DNA from: a virus
Virus record (IMG/VR): IMGVR_UViG_3300020220_000205
Span: 1-32,210 of that record
DNA length: 32,210 bases
Direction: 5' to 3' (one strand)
Shown: piece by piece, positions 14,644 to 29,309 of the stretch
Numbering within the stretch: position 1 is the first letter of the stretch
Layout: each line of letters begins with the position of its first letter
The notes under the pieces: generated by a model
The model's database searches: none
What the model was told of the DNA's origin: nothing
What the model saw: the letters and a program-made list of their open reading frames with translations, nothing else
Translations under genes and position numbers: made by a program

Positions 14644-14905
14644 TCTGTCCTCTCGCAATGCGCTGCTCAATAATACCAAGAAGAAACCTCATTCCCTCTC
14701 GATGAAATAATTCGTTTGTTTGTGCGTGTGGGCCTAATACAGCTTGTGTCGTAATAGATCTTAAATAAAGCAAAAACTCTTTTCCGCCCTGACTAGAAAA
14801 GATACCCGCTGCTAATTTATTTAACTCGTTTTCTTTTTCAGGCAAACGAGTAATCCCATCAGGCCCCAGTGCTAGGGGGCGTTTGTTGACCGCCAAGTTG
14901 ACCAC
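14627..14905 (-). CDS. Small conserved head-cassette protein, Bbp19-like
   Basis: The product is up to 92 aa. The core GGKEFLLYLRSITTQAVLGP, then NELFHREGMRFLLGIIEQR, resembles the Bbp19-like family of small proteins found between portal and scaffold genes of short-tailed phages (a helical fold with an FxxREG-type motif). The function is not established. The start is uncertain: GTG 14905 overlaps the portal gene by 47 nt, but TTG 14896 has AGGTGG at good spacing and may be the true start. The 3' end overlaps the scaffold start by 17 nt, consistent with coupled translation. Confidence 0.6.
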   Translation of the reverse strand: MVNLAVNKRPLALGPDGITRLPEKENELNKLAAGIFSSQGGKEFLLYLRSITTQAVLGPHAQTNELFHREGMRFLLGIIEQRIARGQNGTAS

Positions 14906-16421
14906 CTATTTGTTCTGACAGCTTGTTTACAAGCTGTGCCCTCTCCTGATCCGAGCGAAGTAATCGATCCGGAACACCAAATTTGTCGCCAAGATACTTA
15001 GCGGCATCTTCCGTTTTAATTAACATGTTAACTAACTGAGGTCCGAACCTGACACCAATCATTTCGATGAACCGATCAAAATGAACAATGTCTTGCTGCT
15101 GTTGTGCCTGAGACAAAGGACTTGTGGCACGGACCTTGATCTCACGCCCGTTAATTGTCGGGATTGAGATTCGACCCTGTTTCTTTAAAATATAAACAAC
15201 ACGACGCAGAACAGGGTTTACCAACTCAGCTTGAAGCCGACCAAACGCTGCGCCAATCTGACGAGACAAATCAGACATACGCTGAGACACTTCGGTAGCT
15301 GACATAGGAGTTTTATCAGGGTTGCCTAACATATCATTGTATAAGGCTTTCTTGATATTCATTCTCATGTCACTAAGGATCAATTGAGCAACATCGAAGT
15401 TGCCAGTTGATGTAATATTCTTCAAACCAGAAGAGCCTGGGGCAATTGGGATTAAGGTTCCAGGGACAATTTGAATTGTATCGACATTCAAAACGCCATC
15501 ATCCTCGACTTGATACAATCCAGAGATTGCCATCTGAGCATTTTCAAGAATTAACTGGACAGTGAGGTTACAGGTTTTGATTGCTGGCATTGCATTCAGC
15601 AATGGACCACGACCAAAGGTTTCACCCGCAGCCTTTGACCACCGGAATGGAACAAAAGGATTTGATCCGCTGCCCACATATGTTTCAGAATAATAAAGAT
15701 CCTTACATATTGGATCAAAGACCATACGCTGATAGCGTTCTTCAACAGATCCATACATGCGATATGTGCAGTCAATTAAATTTAATTGTGTATCTTTGCC
15801 AGTCTTAAGATCAAGATCAACCTTCATAGGAAGTTTGGCCTTGGGATAGGCAATAGTTACCTTGCTTGCGCGGATTGATCGCTCACGAAATACACCATCA
15901 ATGCGGTCATCAGGACCAACATCAATGTAGAGTTGTGTCAAAGGAATGGTTGTGAAGTTGATTGGATTTAGCGCATCGCCTTCCGTGATCTGGATGCAGC
16001 CTGTTCCAATAGCAAGATCCAAGAAACTTTCATGGACTTCTTGAGAGAAGTTTGAGTTCTGAATAATCTCAAAGATATAATTGGTAACTTGCTCAAGCGC
16101 GAGATCAACCTCGCTGCGCTGATCTTCTGGAATCTCTGATCCGGAAACAAGTTCTGCCCATCGAGCATAGTTAGGAACAAGACCCGATTGGAGACGAGAA
16201 GCAAACTCTTGCAAACCTACAACGGCAGTCTCGTCAAAGATCTTGTCTGTTTTTGTCTGAGCCTGTTCTTGAGCATAGAAACTTTCCCGTTGTGGAAAAG
16301 CATATTCATAGCATTCTTCAAACTTAGGGGTCCAAAGATCCTTAATATGCTTTGCACGGCGAAATCGTTCAGCAAGTGATTCAACCGAAAATGTATCTAC
16401 GGAAAGAACTTGACCTTCCAT
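14859..16421 (-). CDS. Portal (head-to-tail connector) protein, T7 gp8-like
   Basis: This 520-aa protein of the T7 gp8-type connector family forms the dodecameric ring at the packaging vertex. It shows the typical LAERFRRAKHIKDLWTPKFE opening, then YAFPQRESFY, LASRLQSGLVPNYARWAEL-like text (here EFASRLQSGLVPNYARWAEL), NFTTIPLTQLYIDVGPDDRI, and the late SATEVSQRMSDLSRQIGAAF helix. Length matches the family. I start at ATG 16421, whose A is the last base of the upstream stop (TGATG). It is followed by small head genes and preceded by the terminase and an 78-aa protein, the usual packaging order. Confidence 0.93.
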   Translation of the reverse strand: MEGQVLSVDTFSVESLAERFRRAKHIKDLWTPKFEECYEYAFPQRESFYAQEQAQTKTDKIFDETAVVGLQEFASRLQSGLVPNYARWAELVSGSEIPEDQRSEVDLALEQVTNYIFEIIQNSNFSQEVHESFLDLAIGTGCIQITEGDALNPINFTTIPLTQLYIDVGPDDRIDGVFRERSIRASKVTIAYPKAKLPMKVDLDLKTGKDTQLNLIDCTYRMYGSVEERYQRMVFDPICKDLYYSETYVGSGSNPFVPFRWSKAAGETFGRGPLLNAMPAIKTCNLTVQLILENAQMAISGLYQVEDDGVLNVDTIQIVPGTLIPIAPGSSGLKNITSTGNFDVAQLILSDMRMNIKKALYNDMLGNPDKTPMSATEVSQRMSDLSRQIGAAFGRLQAELVNPVLRRVVYILKKQGRISIPTINGREIKVRATSPLSQAQQQQDIVHFDRFIEMIGVRFGPQLVNMLIKTEDAAKYLGDKFGVPDRLLRSDQERAQLVNKLSEQIGGQLGGQQTPPSTGA

Positions 16422-16657
16422 CAATTAGCCTTTTTGGAAAGGAACCCAGAGCCGCCGGAAGGGCCGGAAATCAAAGAACGCATACCATACAAGCCAGCAC
16501 TACGACCAATCATCTCTGCTGTGCGCTTACGCTTTTCTTCGGAGCGAGCAGCATTCGCAGCGGCCTGTTGATTTTTTATCATGTCTTGTTGTTCTACCTC
16601 TGCCTTCATCATTGCAGGCGGTGATGATGGTTTATTAAAACTAAACAAATCACACAT
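16421..16657 (-). CDS. Small conserved protein between terminase and portal
   Basis: This 78-aa protein starts MCDLFSFNKPSSPPAMMKAE. It has a helical Ala/Glu/Gln/Arg-rich middle and a Gly/Ser-rich end (SLISGPSGGSGFLSKKAN). Small MCDLF-type proteins recur at this site in related phages, but I know no function. The start has GGAGA 5-6 nt upstream and lies just downstream of a candidate promoter/operator at 16669-16706. The stop is coupled to the portal start (TGATG). A role in head assembly is only inferred from position. Confidence 0.7.
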   Translation of the reverse strand: MCDLFSFNKPSSPPAMMKAEVEQQDMIKNQQAAANAARSEEKRKRTAEMIGRSAGLYGMRSLISGPSGGSGFLSKKAN

Positions 16658-22496: not shown

Positions 22497-22766
22497 ATGC
22501 TGACTGGTTACTATGAACAGTTGCTCGTCTTGTGCCAAGGATCAGAGACAGAACTAAGGCGGGCCTGTGCAAAAAGTGGTGTACCAAGCAGCACTTTTTA
22601 TAGGGCCAAGCATGGTCAAGAACTTAGATTCAGCACCGCCCAAAAGATTGCCAGCCATATTCAAAAATACCATATCGATCCCAACGAAAGTTTATGTAAA
22701 CCATCCGACCCCAATGGAGGTGGAGTTTTACAAAGAAATGATAGGTCAATTAATTCAAGTTCGTAA
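22497..22766 (+). CDS. HTH regulator, Cro/CI-like
   Basis: This 89-aa protein has a predicted helix-turn-helix at about residues 18-56. RRACAKSGVPSSTFYRAKHG is followed by LRFSTAQKIASHIQKY, as in small phage repressors. ATG 22497 has GAGGAG about 7 nt upstream and lies only about 15 nt after the palindrome. The C-terminal 20 residues are polar and Asn/Ser-rich. It probably binds the palindrome just upstream and controls its own operon; this is inferred from layout. The 3' end overlaps the second HTH gene by about 50 nt. Confidence 0.75.
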   Translation: MLTGYYEQLLVLCQGSETELRRACAKSGVPSSTFYRAKHGQELRFSTAQKIASHIQKYHIDPNESLCKPSDPNGGGVLQRNDRSINSSS

Positions 22767-22929
22767 AAGTAAAAAAATTAGTCAAGAAAATTTAAACGCT
22801 ATACTTGGCATGACTGATGGGCAAATAAATAAATGGGAGTGCGGCGCACGGCTGCCGTCCTCATTCAATCTTATGTGCTGGTGCAATGCGCTTGGTCTAA
22901 GAATAAATTTGGAGTCCATCAATGACTAA
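22714..22929 (+). CDS. Second HTH protein, XRE-type
   Basis: The 71-aa product starts MEVEFYKEMIGQLIQVRKSK and shows a classic XRE HTH: ISQENLNAILGMTDGQINKW, then ECGARLPSSFNLMCWCNALG. The helix pair SQENLNAILGM / TDGQINKWE is the DNA-binding unit. No good ribosome binding site precedes ATG 22714, so it is probably coupled to the upstream regulator, which it overlaps; ATG 22741 (MIGQLIQV) is an alternative. The frame opens at 22567, but the first 49 codons look like shadow sequence. It overlaps the DUF1064 gene by 8 nt. Two adjacent HTH genes resemble a minimal regulatory pair. Confidence 0.75.
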   Translation: MEVEFYKEMIGQLIQVRKSKKISQENLNAILGMTDGQINKWECGARLPSSFNLMCWCNALGLRINLESIND

Positions 22930-23341
22930 GAAAGTAAGTGTCTCTACTAATGAAACAGGACGCAGACCTACGCGATCTAAGTATAACGCCAACGGTAGAC
23001 ATGTTGATGGGCATTGGTTTGCCAGTGATGCCGAAGCTCAAAGATATGAGCAACTTAAAGAGATGGTCGAGCAGGGTTTAATTGACCGACTTGAACTTCA
23101 ACCAGAATATAAATTGTCTATTAAAAACAAACACATAACTACATATCGAGCAGACTTTAGGTATGCAATATTAGAACGTGGACAAATTAAAAATGTCATT
23201 CTTGAGGATGTCAAGGGGATGATTACAGATGTATATGTCATTAAAAAGAAAATGGTTGAAGCAGAATATGGCATAGAGATCAACGAGATACCCGCATCCA
23301 AGATCAAACAATGGGTCGGAAGATACCCGCATATGGAGTGA
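22922..23341 (+). CDS. DUF1064 nuclease (PD-(D/E)XK-like)
   Basis: This 139-aa protein is of the DUF1064 family of phage endonuclease-like proteins. It contains SKYNANGRHVDGHWFASDAE with acidic residues near 36-38, LELQPEYKLSI, then YRADFRY (Asp78) and ILEDVKG (Asp96/Lys98). These form a PD-(D/E)XK-type active site. Members are proposed to resolve branched DNA during phage replication or recombination. The start overlaps the HTH gene by 8 nt. It lies directly before the initiator gene, supporting a replication/recombination role. Confidence 0.85.
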   Translation: MTKKVSVSTNETGRRPTRSKYNANGRHVDGHWFASDAEAQRYEQLKEMVEQGLIDRLELQPEYKLSIKNKHITTYRADFRYAILERGQIKNVILEDVKGMITDVYVIKKKMVEAEYGIEINEIPASKIKQWVGRYPHME

Positions 23342-23344
23342 ATA

Positions 23345-24085
23345 ATGTCGATTGAGGCACTTAACTGGGCACTCAATCTGCAACTAAATAAACCAGTCTG
23401 GAAAGCCGTTCTCATTGGGATCGCTAATCATGCAAACCCCAACGGTCGGGCTTGGCCTAGTGTTGCAAGATTGTGCCTGTATTCTGGATACAAAGAACGT
23501 GTTGTCAGGCAAGCCATCAATCAGATGACTGAGCAAGGCTGGCTCCATCGAGAAGAACGCGCTGGAACCACAACTGTATATACATTGTGTAAACTATACC
23601 CCCTGCATGAAGTGCACCCCTGCACCACATGCACCCCTCCCCTGCATGACATGCACCCTAACCATAATAGAACCATCAATAATAAAAAGAAGATGCAACC
23701 AGATTGGATGCCAACCACTTCAATGATTGAGTTCGCTCATGCCAATGGATTTGACGCAAGGAGAGTGCAAAATGAAGCAGACAAATTTAGGGACTACTGG
23801 ATTGGCACTGGTAAACCAATGGCAAACTGGGAAGCCACATGGAGAAACTGGGTTCGCCGTAATAACTCAATACAAAGATCGAGATCCGGAGGATATGCTG
23901 ATAGGCATACCAGAGTGGCTACTCAAAATCGTTCCCGAATCAACAATGTTGCTAGTCAATTGGATCAATATGAAAAAAGCATTGCCGCAGACCATCAACA
24001 AGTCGGGGGCAATGATCGATTTGGAACAGGCATACGCCAACTTGGTTATGGCTATGATGCCACCAGATCCAAAAGTAATACTTAA
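23345..24085 (+). CDS. Replication initiator, lambda O-like
   Basis: The 246-aa product has an N-terminal winged-helix/HTH_36 region (about residues 8-80: WKAVLIGIANHANPNGRAWP, SVARLCLYSGYKERVVRQAI, GWLHREERAGTTTVYTL). A Pro/His/Cys linker (86-105) is followed by a C-terminal segment, FRDYWIGTGKPMANWEATWR then NWVRR (148-172). This FRDYW...DWxATWRNWxR motif is common in phage replication proteins that recruit a helicase loader. The linker DNA carries three iterons (see 23600-23659), as in lambda gene O. The last roughly 70 residues are low-complexity and overlap the next gene. The ATG at 23345 is 3 nt after the DUF1064 stop. Confidence 0.82.
   Translation: MSIEALNWALNLQLNKPVWKAVLIGIANHANPNGRAWPSVARLCLYSGYKERVVRQAINQMTEQGWLHREERAGTTTVYTLCKLYPLHEVHPCTTCTPPLHDMHPNHNRTINNKKKMQPDWMPTTSMIEFAHANGFDARRVQNEADKFRDYWIGTGKPMANWEATWRNWVRRNNSIQRSRSGGYADRHTRVATQNRSRINNVASQLDQYEKSIAADHQQVGGNDRFGTGIRQLGYGYDATRSKSNT
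23600..23659 (+). repeat. Three 21-bp iterons, putative replication origin
   Basis: Three near-identical 21-bp units, CCCCTGCAnnAnnTGCACCC plus one base, lie at 23600-23620, 23617-23637 and 23639-23659. Pairwise identity is 17-18 of 21. Each has TGCA arms in inverted orientation. Copy 2 is in a different codon phase from copies 1 and 3, so the DNA, not the peptide, is conserved. An AT-rich stretch (28 of 38 bases A or T in 23659-23696) follows immediately, a likely unwinding element. The layout matches the origin inside lambda gene O. Confidence 0.7.
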
Positions 24086-24344
24086 AGCACTCGAAGCCGT
24101 GGCTTCTGTATTCAATGCGGCATTGCCAGACGAATTGGGTATCAAAGTTTACCTGACACTATTAAAAGATCTACCTCATGTTGCATTGCAAAATGCTTGC
24201 ATCACGGTGTGTGCAACGCACAAATATTCCAACATGCCTTTGCCATCCGCCTTCATTGGGGCAGGCGGTCTGTCAAAGTCATTGTTGGAACAGACAAAAA
24301 GTCGGCTGCGCCTTGCAATAAATAACTTGAAAGCAATGCAATAA
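24012..24344 (+). CDS. Putative helicase loader, lambda P/G39P-like
   Basis: The 110-aa core starts MIDLEQAYANLVMAMMPPDP and continues PKVILKALEAVASVFNAALP, VYLTLLKDLPHVALQNACIT and THKYSNMPLPSAFI. The LY..L.DLP...L..A...........P.PA-like pattern resembles small phage helicase loaders or helicase-interaction proteins that follow the initiator gene. It would bring host DnaB to the origin. The start is uncertain: ATG 24012 has GGGGGC upstream; ATG 23970 (MKKALPQTI) has GGA at good spacing. Either overlaps the initiator gene. The frame opens at 23727 but the early part looks like shadow. Family assignment is moderate. Confidence 0.6.
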   Translation: MIDLEQAYANLVMAMMPPDPKVILKALEAVASVFNAALPDELGIKVYLTLLKDLPHVALQNACITVCATHKYSNMPLPSAFIGAGGLSKSLLEQTKSRLRLAINNLKAMQ

Positions 24345-24379: not shown

Positions 24380-25180
24380 ATGGATAGACTAGAATATATC
24401 GGTGGGACCGATAGCCAACGCATCATGGCTGGCGACTGGGTTAATCTGTATCTTGAAAAAACTGGTGCCAAACAACCAGAAGATTTGTTAAGCAATTTCC
24501 AAGTGCAACTTGGTAAACATACAGAACAGTTTCATATCAATTGGGTGATGAATAAACTAGGATATAATTGGTCAGTTGTTAATGAACTTAAAACATCCAA
24601 ACGTATTCCATATATGGCGGGGCATCTTGATGGGTGGATAGATAATCTTGAAACATTCATTGAGGTTAAACATTCAAATGAATGGATGAGTGCATCTGAC
24701 AAAGCCAGATATTACATGCCACAATTGCAGCATTATCTTTTTATAACTAGCTGTCCGTTCTGTTACTTCTCTGTTATTAGAGGCAACCAAGATCCAGAAT
24801 ATATTACAGTAAAAGCAGATCAAGAATATCAAGATCGTCTTATCGAGCGAGTAAAGTTATTCTGGTGGCATCTTGAAAATAAGACGCAGCCGCTTGGTGA
24901 TGAAGTCCCTTTGTCAGAACAAGAGTTAGACAAAAAGCTGGCAGAAAAAGTACCAGTAAATAATCTCAAAGTTATAGATATGACTTTTAATAATCAATGG
25001 ACAGTTTATGCCAAGCAATATCTTGATACTCAACCTTATGTTGAACAACATGAAGATGCAAAGAAAGCATTAAAGTTTTTAGTAACACCTGAGATTGGCG
25101 AAGCATACGGACATGGCATTACCATCAAGCGCGATAAGCGCGGTTCATTACGGTTCACAACAAAAGGAGAAGAAGAATGA
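24380..25180 (+). CDS. YqaJ/lambda-exo-like recombination exonuclease
   Basis: This 266-aa protein has the YqaJ-type PD-(D/E)XK nuclease motifs: YIGGTDSQRIMAGDW (6-20), LGKHTEQFHINW with Glu49, AGHLDGWID with Asp84, FIEVKHS with Glu95 and Lys97, and YMPQLQHYLFI with Gln115. Such 5'-3' exonucleases process double-strand ends for a partner annealase, here the ERF gene 0.5 kb downstream. ATG 24380 has AAAAGGAG upstream. A TTATCTACA, one mismatch from a DnaA box, lies just before it (24354-24362). It overlaps the next gene by ATGA. Confidence 0.87.
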   Translation: MDRLEYIGGTDSQRIMAGDWVNLYLEKTGAKQPEDLLSNFQVQLGKHTEQFHINWVMNKLGYNWSVVNELKTSKRIPYMAGHLDGWIDNLETFIEVKHSNEWMSASDKARYYMPQLQHYLFITSCPFCYFSVIRGNQDPEYITVKADQEYQDRLIERVKLFWWHLENKTQPLGDEVPLSEQELDKKLAEKVPVNNLKVIDMTFNNQWTVYAKQYLDTQPYVEQHEDAKKALKFLVTPEIGEAYGHGITIKRDKRGSLRFTTKGEEE

Positions 25181-25509: not shown

Positions 25510-25733
25510 CAATAACAGAAATAGAACATGAATATTATGATCTTGCTATGGATGCGGCACGTTCAACTGATACTCATATTCAAAGAATAGGGTTAAAGCA
25601 TCTAAGTAAAATTATACAACACCAAAAAGAAACAAATGCAGAAACTGATTTACAATTTGAAGCGTCATTAACACAAGAGCAAAGAGCGATCCTCAATAGA
25701 TCGACCTTCTACATTATAGGAGAGAAGCAATGA
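25506..25733 (+). CDS. Hypothetical protein in the recombination operon
   Basis: This 75-aa protein starts MTITEIEHEYYDLAMDAARS at ATG 25506, overlapping the upstream stop by ATGA; an earlier in-frame ATG at 25485 lies inside the preceding gene. It is acidic and helical (HIQRIGLKHLSKIIQHQKET). No family recognised. The stop overlaps the ERF gene by ATGA, and AGGAGAGAAG for that gene lies in its last codons. Confidence 0.65.
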   Translation: MTITEIEHEYYDLAMDAARSTDTHIQRIGLKHLSKIIQHQKETNAETDLQFEASLTQEQRAILNRSTFYIIGEKQ

Positions 25734-26293
25734 ACATTTATCAACGCCTTGCCAAAGTCATGGGCGAAGTTGATTATATCCAAAAAGAAAAGAAACAAGG
25801 TATGCGTTATAGCATCGTAAGCCATGATGCAGTCACAGCTAAAGTGCGGCCAATACTTCTCAAACATGGTATCGTGTATCATGTTTCAGCTATTCATTAT
25901 GAACAAGTAGGTAACCGAACTCAAGTTCATCTTGTAGTAACATTTGTTAACATTGATGACCCAGAAGATCAGATTGATTCACATTCAATTGGCTTTGGCA
26001 TTGATGATCAAGACAAAGGTGCAGGAAAAGCAATCTCTTATGCAGTTAAATACGCGCTACTCAAAACGCTCGGCCTTGAAACGGGTGATGATCCAGACGA
26101 AAATCAAGACGCAGTGTTCGATAACCCGCTTGTTACCAAAATCAAAACAGCAATTGATTTGGCAAACAGCAAAGAAGATCTCAGTAACGTAGCAGAAACT
26201 ATCAAAGCTGAGGCAAGTAACTTGGATAAAGGCACACTTGCTTCATTGCGTGGTGCGTTTGCCCAGAAACAAACATCAATCAACAACAAGTAA
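25730..26293 (+). CDS. erf: ERF family single-strand annealing protein
   Basis: This 187-aa ERF-family annealase carries the family signature GFGIDDQDKGAGKAISYAVK (88-107) and YALLKTLGLETGDDPDENQD (108-127). ERF proteins form rings that anneal complementary single strands and circularise or recombine phage DNA. The N-terminus has IYQRLAKVMGEVDYIQKEKK, also typical. The C-terminal 60 residues form a variable helical linker. It works with the YqaJ exonuclease upstream and the SSB gene 12 nt downstream. Supports replication through recombination and concatemer formation. Confidence 0.93.
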   Translation: MNIYQRLAKVMGEVDYIQKEKKQGMRYSIVSHDAVTAKVRPILLKHGIVYHVSAIHYEQVGNRTQVHLVVTFVNIDDPEDQIDSHSIGFGIDDQDKGAGKAISYAVKYALLKTLGLETGDDPDENQDAVFDNPLVTKIKTAIDLANSKEDLSNVAETIKAEASNLDKGTLASLRGAFAQKQTSINNK

Positions 26294-26305: not shown

Positions 26306-26683
26306 ATGTATGCGTCATTACAAATCGTTGGCAATGTAGGTAACTTTGAACTCAAGAAAGCTGGAGAAAAAACATTCTCCAAGTTTGGAGTAGCCACAAC
26401 CAGTTGGTCAAAAAGCGATGGCAAAAAGACAACATGGTATAATGTTGTATGTTGGAATACCATGCTCTCGGAGTTTCTTGCTCAGAACATGGGCAAGGGT
26501 AGCAAAGTATTTGTTACAGGCGAACTGCAACAACGTGAATATACAGACAAGAACGGGGCAACTAAGACATCAATTGAATTGATAGTCAGCCCGTTCAATG
26601 GTACGGTTCTTATCTTGTCTGAATGGGCAAGCAAGGGAGCAACCGAAGAAGATTCACCAATTGATAATAGCGTTCCATTCTAA
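26306..26683 (+). CDS. ssb: Single-stranded DNA-binding protein
   Basis: This 125-aa SSB has an OB fold over about residues 2-108 (LQIVGNVGNFELKKAGEKTF, FGVATTSWSKSDGKKTTWYN, VVCWNTMLSEFLAQNMGKGS, VFVTGELQQREYTDKNGATK) and an acidic tail ending DNSVPF. This resembles the DDIPF tip through which SSB binds partners. It is shorter than E. coli SSB because the linker is short. GGAGAGA precedes ATG 26306. It is flanked by the ERF and ArdC-like genes. Confidence 0.92.
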   Translation: MYASLQIVGNVGNFELKKAGEKTFSKFGVATTSWSKSDGKKTTWYNVVCWNTMLSEFLAQNMGKGSKVFVTGELQQREYTDKNGATKTSIELIVSPFNGTVLILSEWASKGATEEDSPIDNSVPF

Positions 26684-26693
26684 GGAGAAACAG

Positions 26694-27557
26694 ATGAATA
26701 CATACGATCAACTCACAACGCAGTTGGTTGATATGGTTGACTCAACTACGGGGGAATGGTCCCCGCCGTGGCGCATGAGCGGCCTCGAATGTCACCAAAA
26801 TGCAAAGACATTACGCAGATACCAAGGCATGAATGTGCTTATGCTTTGGCTTACACAAATGAAAAACTCATACTCATATCCAATTTGGGCTACGCTTAAA
26901 CAATGGGGCTCGATGGGAGCCAAGGTAAAAAAAGGATCAAAGGGCACAGCCGTGGTGTTCTATGATCAATATCGCAAACAAATAAATGGAGGAGAGGATG
27001 AAGTATCTTACTCGATTGCTAAGACGCATCATGTATTCAATGCCGATCAGGTCGAAGGATATGAGATCCCAGCTAGACCCGAACTTATTATACACGACAA
27101 CAATAATGCAATCGAAAAGTTTATTAAAAATACAAAAGCAGACATTCGGATACAAGGTGAGCGAGCGTTCTATGTCCCATCGCAAGACTTCATAGCTATG
27201 CCAGACAAAGGATTATTTCCACAAGTCGAGCATTATTATTCTGTAACATTCCATGAGTTAACGCATTGGACTGGTGCAAAGGATCGACTTAATCGGGAAC
27301 TAAAAGGCAGAGGGTTACGCTCTGACTATGCCTACGAAGAATTGATTGCGGAACTTGGTGCTGCTTTCTTGTCGGCAGACTTTGGTATTCTTAATGCAGT
27401 CAAAGATGACAACGCAAAATATCTAAAGATATGGCGTGATGCAATGAAACAAGACAGTAAGATCATCTTCAATGCCGCATCAGAAGCAACAAAGGCTGTC
27501 AAGTTTATGTATGACCAGCAATACTTTTCAGAATTGGAGCAGGAGATGGCAGCATGA
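26694..27557 (+). CDS. ArdC-like antirestriction protein with zinc metallopeptidase domain
   Basis: This 287-aa protein joins an N-terminal ArdC-type ssDNA-binding domain (about 1-125: GEWSPPWRMSGLECHQNAKT, YQGMNVLMLWLTQMKNSYSY, WATLKQWGSMGAKVKKGSKG) to a C-terminal zincin-like peptidase. That domain carries HELTHWTG (HExxH at 187-191) and the downstream helix YAYEELIAELGAAFLSADFG supplying a third Glu ligand. ArdC proteins protect incoming DNA from restriction. I start at ATG 26694 with AAGGAGAAA upstream; the frame opens at 26598 within ssb. It overlaps the DnaA-like gene by ATGA. Confidence 0.87.
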   Translation: MNTYDQLTTQLVDMVDSTTGEWSPPWRMSGLECHQNAKTLRRYQGMNVLMLWLTQMKNSYSYPIWATLKQWGSMGAKVKKGSKGTAVVFYDQYRKQINGGEDEVSYSIAKTHHVFNADQVEGYEIPARPELIIHDNNNAIEKFIKNTKADIRIQGERAFYVPSQDFIAMPDKGLFPQVEHYYSVTFHELTHWTGAKDRLNRELKGRGLRSDYAYEELIAELGAAFLSADFGILNAVKDDNAKYLKIWRDAMKQDSKIIFNAASEATKAVKFMYDQQYFSELEQEMAA

Positions 27558-27997
27558 TTTTAGTTAAGGACTGTGCAGATGTAGTATCAACTATACTGCA
27601 AGTATCAATTAAGGATTTGTATGGAGATCGAAAGCAAAAGTGGGTTGCCGAGGCAAGGATGTATGTCTATTGGCTTGCCAAAGAATATACTCGGTTCTCT
27701 CTACCCCGCATTGGCAGAGCCATGCGACGAGATCATTCTACAATTCTGCACGGCATTAAAAAGATCAATAAACTTATTGAAGAGAATGATGAACGTGCAA
27801 TTGCACTGACAAAACAAATGCAAAAAGAATTAGATAATCGCTTTGGTGATGTAGATCAATTAGTAATTAATGATTGCCATGCAAATGAAATCAAAGAACT
27901 TATGCCCACCCTTGCAATGCAACTTTATACATTAGCAAAACAAATTTTACGAGAGAATAAACATGAAGGCATCAACACAAATAAGAAAGATTTTTGA
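27554..27997 (+). CDS. Stand-alone DnaA domain IV protein
   Basis: This 147-aa protein contains the DnaA C-terminal DNA-binding domain without the AAA+ ATPase. ARMYVYWLAKEYTRFSLPRI and RAMRRDHSTILHGIKKINKL span about residues 34-75, including the signature RRDHSTILHG (58-67) that reads the DnaA box. Residues 75-147 are helical and unrecognised. It could bind DnaA boxes to steer or block host initiation, or help at the phage origin. It overlaps the ArdC gene by ATGA and the next gene by 35 nt. Confidence 0.86.
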   Translation: MILVKDCADVVSTILQVSIKDLYGDRKQKWVAEARMYVYWLAKEYTRFSLPRIGRAMRRDHSTILHGIKKINKLIEENDERAIALTKQMQKELDNRFGDVDQLVINDCHANEIKELMPTLAMQLYTLAKQILRENKHEGINTNKKDF

Positions 27998-28476: not shown

Positions 28477-28671
28477 TTGTTACATAAAAGAGATATAAAA
28501 AATTTTGTAACTAAATTAGGTGGACATGTTTTAAGTATCCATGTAAGTCGTCACTATAAAGTTGTTGCTTTATTTGGAAACAAAATAATAAAATTTGTCC
28601 ATCCTAAAACACCAAGCGACTTTCGAGGCTTAAAAAATCTTGAAAGTCATATTAAGAAACAACTAAAATGA
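28477..28671 (+). CDS. Small basic protein, HicA-like in outline
   Basis: This 64-aa protein begins at TTG 28477, the base after the previous stop, with GAGAGAAC upstream; no ATG is available. VTKLGGHVLSIHVSRHYKVV and HPKTPSDFRGLKNLESHIKK resemble a family of short phage proteins with a dsRBD/HicA-like beta layout and a conserved TPSD-R-L-N motif. It is not evidently a toxin, and no HicB partner is next to it. It overlaps the amidotransferase-like gene by ATGA. Confidence 0.6.
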   Translation: MLHKRDIKNFVTKLGGHVLSIHVSRHYKVVALFGNKIIKFVHPKTPSDFRGLKNLESHIKKQLK

Positions 28672-29309
28672 TACCACGGATAGCATTATTTGTTCATGAT
28701 CCAGAAGCAAGCAGAGAATGTGCTGATGCCATGATTGAAGTGCTATCCGGTTCATTTCAAATCTTAACATTTAATGAAGGAGAATTTAATGATGTTCTTC
28801 AAAAAGCTGATATCGTGGCTTTCGGAGGCGGTGTTGGGGATGCTCAAAAATATTATGACTTCTTCAACCGTAGTCGAGGAAATTTTGTGGCTGATTTTGT
28901 ATCTAACGGTGGCAAGTATCTTGGTATTTGTATGGGTGCCTATTGGGCTGGTCGAAATTATTTTGATTTACTTAATAACCTTAACCCTGTTCAATATATT
29001 AAAAGACCCATGGCAGATGTTAAACGATCATATCAGACTGTGGCTCATATCTCGTGGATGGGTGTAGAAACTAATATGTTCTTCTATGATGGTTGCACAT
29101 TCGAAGGTGATGGGCAAACGCAGATCATAGCAAGATATGCAAACAATGATCCGATGGCAATCATTCAAGGTCGCGTTGGCCTGATTGGTTGCCATCCAGA
29201 AAGTCAAGAAAAATGGTTCTTAAAAAAATATCTTAAGAAGCATTGGCATAATGGCGCTCACCATGAGTTGCTTTTGTCATTCACTAAAAAACTTATGAGA
29301 GTTAAATAA
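28668..29309 (+). CDS. Class I glutamine amidotransferase-like protein (BPL_N type)
   Basis: This 213-aa protein resembles the N-terminal domain of large biotin protein ligases, a class I glutamine amidotransferase-like fold. It has VAFGGGVGDAQKYY (50-63), the nucleophile elbow YLGICMGAYWAG (84-95) with Cys88, and LIGCHPESQ (172-180) with His176 and Glu178. That is a complete Cys-His-Glu triad. The substrate is unknown; it may be an amidase or transferase acting on a nucleotide or peptide. It is the last gene of the rightward unit and overlaps the stop of the convergent phosphoesterase by 8 nt. Confidence 0.78.
   Translation: MIPRIALFVHDPEASRECADAMIEVLSGSFQILTFNEGEFNDVLQKADIVAFGGGVGDAQKYYDFFNRSRGNFVADFVSNGGKYLGICMGAYWAGRNYFDLLNNLNPVQYIKRPMADVKRSYQTVAHISWMGVETNMFFYDGCTFEGDGQTQIIARYANNDPMAIIQGRVGLIGCHPESQEKWFLKKYLKKHWHNGAHHELLLSFTKKLMRVK

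Follow-up and report, generated by a model that had tools for sequence, protein, structure and literature searches.

Palindromic iterons of conserved spacing inside an HTH_36/DnaT phage initiator gene: a probable lambda-like replication origin

The window, i.e. the whole stretch of DNA that was analysed, is an IMG/VR virus record of 32,210 bases. On its plus strand lies a cluster of genes for replication and recombination. A gene for an HTH_3/XRE-type regulator (22567-22929) is followed by genes for a DUF1064 nuclease-like protein (22922-23341, identified by Pfam and assigned by PHROG to Holliday junction resolvases), for the putative replication initiator (23345-24085) and for a small protein (23895-24344). 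Next in the module come genes for a YqaJ/RecE-like exonuclease (24380-25180) and an ERF single-strand annealing protein (25730-26293), both identified by Pfam and PHROG, and for a single-strand DNA-binding protein (26306-26683; Pfam SSB, 2.5e-18). The regulator gene stands in the same order in relatives L017 and L349, and the order from the XRE-type HTH gene through DUF1064, initiator, small gene and YqaJ exonuclease to ERF is common to L349 and the window. Neither a helicase nor a polymerase was found among the early-region proteins scanned; the phage therefore presumably uses the host replisome. Rfam and tRNA scans of the window were empty. Further downstream we observed a gene for an ArdC-like antirestriction protein (26598-27557, with ArdcN and zincin-like peptidase domains) and one whose product resembles biotin-protein ligase N-terminal and glutamine amidotransferase folds (28668-29309). 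The nearest isolate by portal (head-tail connector) protein (14859-16424) is Pelagibacter phage EXVC031P Hodr, with 60% identity.

The initiator gene encodes 246 amino acids arranged as a winged HTH, a linker and a DnaT-type C-terminal domain. Pfam places HTH_36 at residues 20-67 (2e-9; 37.5 bits against a curated cutoff of 25) and DnaT (PF17948) at residues 116-179 (4e-8; 33.2 bits against a cutoff of 25); a search of PDB sequences returned a weak DnaT match (E 0.004-0.02). The PHROG matches are O-like replication initiators (phrog_1032, 9e-24; phrog_8540, 5e-16; phrog_391, 1.5e-13). The Pfam search gave no match to PF04492 (Phage_rep_O), the positive controls being lambda O (5.7e-36) and P22 gp18 (6.9e-38). 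In the AlphaFold2 model the winged HTH is confident and includes a predicted recognition helix at codons 51-64 (E51 R52 V53 V54 R55 Q56 ...; 23495-23536, plus strand; pLDDT 96-98), the C-terminal domain is helical, and the linker is predicted to be disordered (pLDDT <50 at residues 88-98 and 103-106). Foldseek searches produced generic winged-helix matches only, none of them at E <= 0.001.

The first-pass annotation had reported three 21-bp iterons, 17 or 18 of 21 positions identical, in the linker of an O-like gene. The location was borne out, as three copies occupy codons of the disordered linker, and so were the identities (17, 18 and 18); the 21-bp unit was not, copies 1 and 2 overlapping by four bases. 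The repeat is best described as a 13-bp core, TGCA-N5-TGCA, that occurs three times at spacings of 17 and 22 bp. Iteron 1 occupies 23600-23619 (core TGCATGAAGTGCA at 23604-23616), iteron 2 occupies 23617-23636 (core TGCACCACATGCA at 23621-23633) and iteron 3 occupies 23639-23658 (core TGCATGACATGCA at 23643-23655), all given on the plus strand. The inverted TGCA arms ascribed to the copies are weak as a description because TGCA is its own reverse complement; the true dyad is of the 6+1+6 type, perfect in iteron 3 (TGCATG-A-CATGCA) and imperfect in iterons 1 and 2. The copies are offset from the ATG by 255, 272 and 294 bases, so that the outer two share a codon phase and only the middle one departs from it, as had been claimed.

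Searched with 0 mismatches, TGCANNNNNTGCACC has three sites only in the 32-kb window, all of them in the initiator linker. The triple score of 52 was reached by none of 400 dinucleotide shuffles of the initiator gene (maximum 42) and by none of 2000 synonymous-codon shuffles (maximum 46), and the best triples elsewhere in the window scored 44 and 38. The in-gene array of at least three iterons exceeds both chance and peptide constraint. An exact search of IMG/VR for iteron 3 gave no match because the flanks vary; what is conserved is the core and the spacing.

Directly 3' of iteron 3 lies an AT-rich stretch (23659-23699, 73% AT), in agreement with the initial reading of the locus. The gene's most AT-rich 35-mers fall within it and, judged by composition, it is a probable DNA unwinding element; ~5% of 35-mers in the window equal it in AT-richness, so the stretch is not unique. 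The turn in cumulative GC skew that had been proposed near 23.6 kb did not appear, the minimum lying at ~21.5 kb; since the skew tracks gene orientation, it speaks neither for nor against an origin. The single DnaA box TTATNCACA in the window is below the chance mean; although a protein with DnaA domain IV is encoded, nothing points to a DnaA-type origin. That protein (27554-27997) has domain IV only (PF08299, 7e-18), without the ATPase part.

We gathered relatives of the initiator from phage records and from scans of IMG/VR and GTDB; a nine-member alignment was too diverse for scanning. The repeat-finding method recovers the four annotated iterons of lambda. Repeats located after the HTH exceeded synonymous shuffles (p<0.01) in 37 of 47 cluster representatives, and out-of-phase repeats did so in 33 of the 47; among neighbouring genes taken as controls such repeats were found in 1 of 93. 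At least three in-gene repeats were present in 80 of 95 non-redundant initiators, a threshold that 13-18 of the 95 genes still pass after synonymous shuffling, as codon-fixed iterons are not fully erasable by this procedure. Adjacent spacings in the 95 initiators have sharp peaks at 17 and 22-23 bp, and most of the longer spacings (33, 34, 39, 44, 45) can be composed by adding these values. Wherever a gene has both short and long intervals (38 genes), the short ones come first; this order is not an independent proof, as it is also seen in 27 of 27 synonymously shuffled genes with residual repeats and the genes are related. The spacing in the window (17, 22) corresponds to a shortened 17,17,(17),22,22,22 array. 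The 40 bp that follow the last iteron have a mean AT content of 57.5%, against means of 42.6% for the 5' portion and 40.5% for the remaining 3' portion of the gene, and the enrichment holds in 96% of 80 genes. Among L117-L176, mostly from Rhodobacteraceae genomes, many HTH_36 genes carry in-gene repeats of the GTGTCCGGAATCCGGACAC type, several of them with spacings of 93, 37, 23 and 23.

In our view 23600-23699 is very probably the replication origin of the phage, situated inside its own initiator gene and working like lambda ori. It is improbable, in comparison, that the repeats are operators by which the initiator represses or blocks transcription of its own gene while the true origin lies elsewhere. 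The winged HTH of the initiator does resemble transcription regulators (it has MarR, GntR and PaaX matches), and plasmid iteron-binding initiators commonly autoregulate. However, the sites are ~255 bp into the coding region rather than at a promoter, the window has no more exact copies, and an operator needs no AT-rich element such as the one that directly follows the last iteron in the 80 relatives at the frequency given above.

Close relatives differ in what they conserve. The initiators of L348-L350 are 43% identical to that of the window in amino acids and have TGCA-N5-TGCA three times at 17 and 22 bp, although their linker peptide (RGARGAGVHDVQGRGACGAPE) is unrelated to the corresponding window peptide (PLHEVHPCTTCTPPLHDMHP) and the iterons are flanked by GGGG rather than the CCCC of the window; their recognition helix reads YKERAVRKA, that of the window YKERVVRQA. 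The initiators of L002/L003, L017 and L339 are closer to the window protein (64-68% identity) and have K52 in place of R52; in the same place they carry GGGG..CCCC palindromes (e.g. AGGGGGACTCCCCCT) at 18 and 24 bp. Nucleotide identity of the window to L002, L017 and L339 drops to 33-42% over the iterons, in contrast to 84-86% in codons 1-44, 79-95% in the 13 AT-rich codons after the iterons and 80-85% in the DnaT domain. CCCC/GGGG repeats are also present in L346 and L347 (53-54% identity, K52). A DNA core kept in L348-L350, together with other palindromes put in place where the helix has changed, demonstrates that selection acts on DNA. The first-pass annotation had made this claim and had named retention of the peptide with loss of the DNA repeats as the contrary outcome; L348-L350 present the opposite.

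The same comparisons leave very little room for the idea that the repeats result from selection on the peptide, e.g. on a zinc-binding Cys/His linker of the form HxxH-CxxC-HxxH. The window linker HEVHPCTTCTPPLHDMH does resemble a metal-binding motif; still, L002, L017 and L339 lack the Cys/His pattern and L348-L350 have not retained it despite the common DNA core, and we discarded a zinc motif as the explanation of the linker. Three further points speak against selection on the peptide: one copy, the middle one, lies out of frame; none of 2000 synonymous shuffles gave rise to the repeats; and the linker is predicted to be disordered.

A different arrangement is present in Hodr (L337:3932-4459, OQ414635), where an XRE-type HTH is fused to DnaT at the place of the initiator. 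Here a swap of the DNA-reading module seems to have left both the DnaT domain and the gene that follows in place. No repeats were found in the stretch of the Hodr genome examined, an observation that counts against the origin reading.

Across the relatives, iteron sequence covaries with the recognition helix. Identity at residues 49-58 accounts for iteron similarity over and above what the remainder of the HTH explains (partial Mantel r=0.285; 0/500 permutations), and E51 occurs with GCA..TGC in 25 of 28 genes while D51 occurs with GAA..TTC in six of six (Fisher p=6e-5, in a table that leaves out genes with other cores); both statistics overstate certainty, as the relatives are not phylogenetically independent. 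Switches are also seen within families: L241 (D51, GAA) and L238 (E51, GCA) are 80% identical outside the helix, L262 and L257 are 71% identical, and the window (R52) and L017 (K52) are 87% identical. The rule is partial, given its exceptions, for instance L268 and L274, in which E51 occurs with GAAC..GTTC, and several genes with R56.

We regard it as an even chance that HTH_36 initiators share an origin grammar, in which linker palindromes are arrayed at ~17 and then 22-23 bp with an AT-rich end, residues of the helix set the iteron, and helix and iterons are exchanged together; it is part of this same evenly balanced proposal that E51, R52, R55 and Q56 set the iterons of the window. As only a few helix residues would set the iteron, such a grammar would make both an origin and its specificity predictable from sequence alone. 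The covariation already contradicts neutral replication slippage in a tolerant linker, a source of the repeats that we hold to be highly implausible even though the linker is predicted to be disordered and disordered linkers tolerate expansion of repeats: the spacing falls at the discrete values 17 and 22-23 bp across families with unrelated repeat sequences, the copies are dyad-symmetric as well as covarying with the helix, and the AT-rich element adjoins the last copy.

For the origin that we propose, the covariation and the structural model suggest that the initiator would use its N-terminal winged HTH to bind, as dimers, the three palindromic iterons. Spacings of 17 and 22 bp would array these dimers as a nucleoprotein complex adjoining the AT-rich stretch. 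With 10.5 bp per turn, 22 bp amounts to 2.1 turns and 17 bp to 1.6 turns, so that adjacent dimers would face alike across the 22-bp interval and not across the 17-bp one. By analogy with lambda O, P22 gp18 and SPP1 gp38, dimers on the iterons may strain the neighbouring AT-rich DNA, with opening and helicase loading to follow. The host DnaB helicase and the replisome may then be recruited by the small-gene product together with the DnaT-like C-terminal domain, on the pattern of lambda O/P and SPP1 gp38/gp39.

The small gene (23895-24344, plus strand, 149 aa) begins inside the initiator gene, whose 3' end it overlaps, and has GGAGG ahead of its ATG. Its product has no Pfam match; it is 31% identical to the product of the equivalently placed gene in L349 and 32% identical over 69 aa to its counterpart in Hodr. 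Position and this weak similarity make it the best candidate for a helicase loader gene, and we call it a probable one.

With these results a probable origin is placed in a phage type for which we found no description of replication in the open-licence literature. Annotations such as 'HTH domain protein', 'primosomal protein I' and 'replication initiation O-like' would usually mark an origin too. Because helix and iteron are linked, helix swaps offer a direct test of origin specificity in a large initiator family, and the retention of spacing among diverging iteron sequences sets limits on models for the assembly of initiator dimers in DNA opening. Our search of the open-licence literature found no description of in-gene iterons of HTH_36 phage initiators or of the spacing pattern, though Weigel and Seitz (2006) may list some such origins.

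The term 'lambda-like', used for the locus from the start, is apt for the architecture and the probable mechanism (linker iterons, an AT-rich element and a gene in the position of the loader) and does not extend to membership in the lambda O family, given HTH_36 and DnaT domains, no Phage_rep_O match and a different spacing. The lambda ori lies in gene O and likewise has palindromic iterons midway along the gene, followed directly 3' by an AT-rich unwinding region and then by the gene for helicase loader P; its iterons are partly out of codon phase, like the middle copy in the window. By contrast, lambda has four iterons at 20, 24 and 23 bp where the window has three at 17 and 22 bp, and lambda O is a PF04492 protein with its own C-terminal domain whereas the window protein combines HTH_36 with DnaT. 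The O genes of Stx phages are grouped with the lambda ori in gene O (PMC7466680), and according to work cited in PMC7466680 the two lambda iterons that adjoin the AT-rich region suffice in vitro.

For lambda, P22 and L, the initiators seem to bind iterons that lie in their own genes and differ from phage to phage (PMC8022706), the in-gene iterons of phage L gene 18 being known by inference (PMC8022706). Gene 18 of P22 has in-gene iterons as the window does, but gp18 is a PF04492 protein and the spacing is 20, 24 and 23. The iterons of lambda O (L016) and of P22 gene 18 (L341) are thus unrelated in sequence and equally spaced at 20, 24 and 23 bp, which suggests that in the lambda O family too the spacing is the conserved part. 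In oriL of SPP1, the direct repeats bound by gp38 lie within the gp38 gene, next to an AT-rich unwinding element, and initiation involves the helicase loader gp39 (PMC6316719); SPP1 is a phage of Gram-positive bacteria and its likeness to the window is one of architecture. HTH_36 plasmid Reps (e.g. Paracoccus pAES7, pMARC3 and pMOS2) have iteron-like repeats in predicted oriVs, but these are short sets of two or three repeats, one of them near the rep start codon, and not a linker array (PMC3832669). Origins made of in-gene iterons are therefore already known from lambda, P22 and SPP1; what is new here is the HTH_36/DnaT setting, the spacing pattern and the link between recognition helix and iteron.
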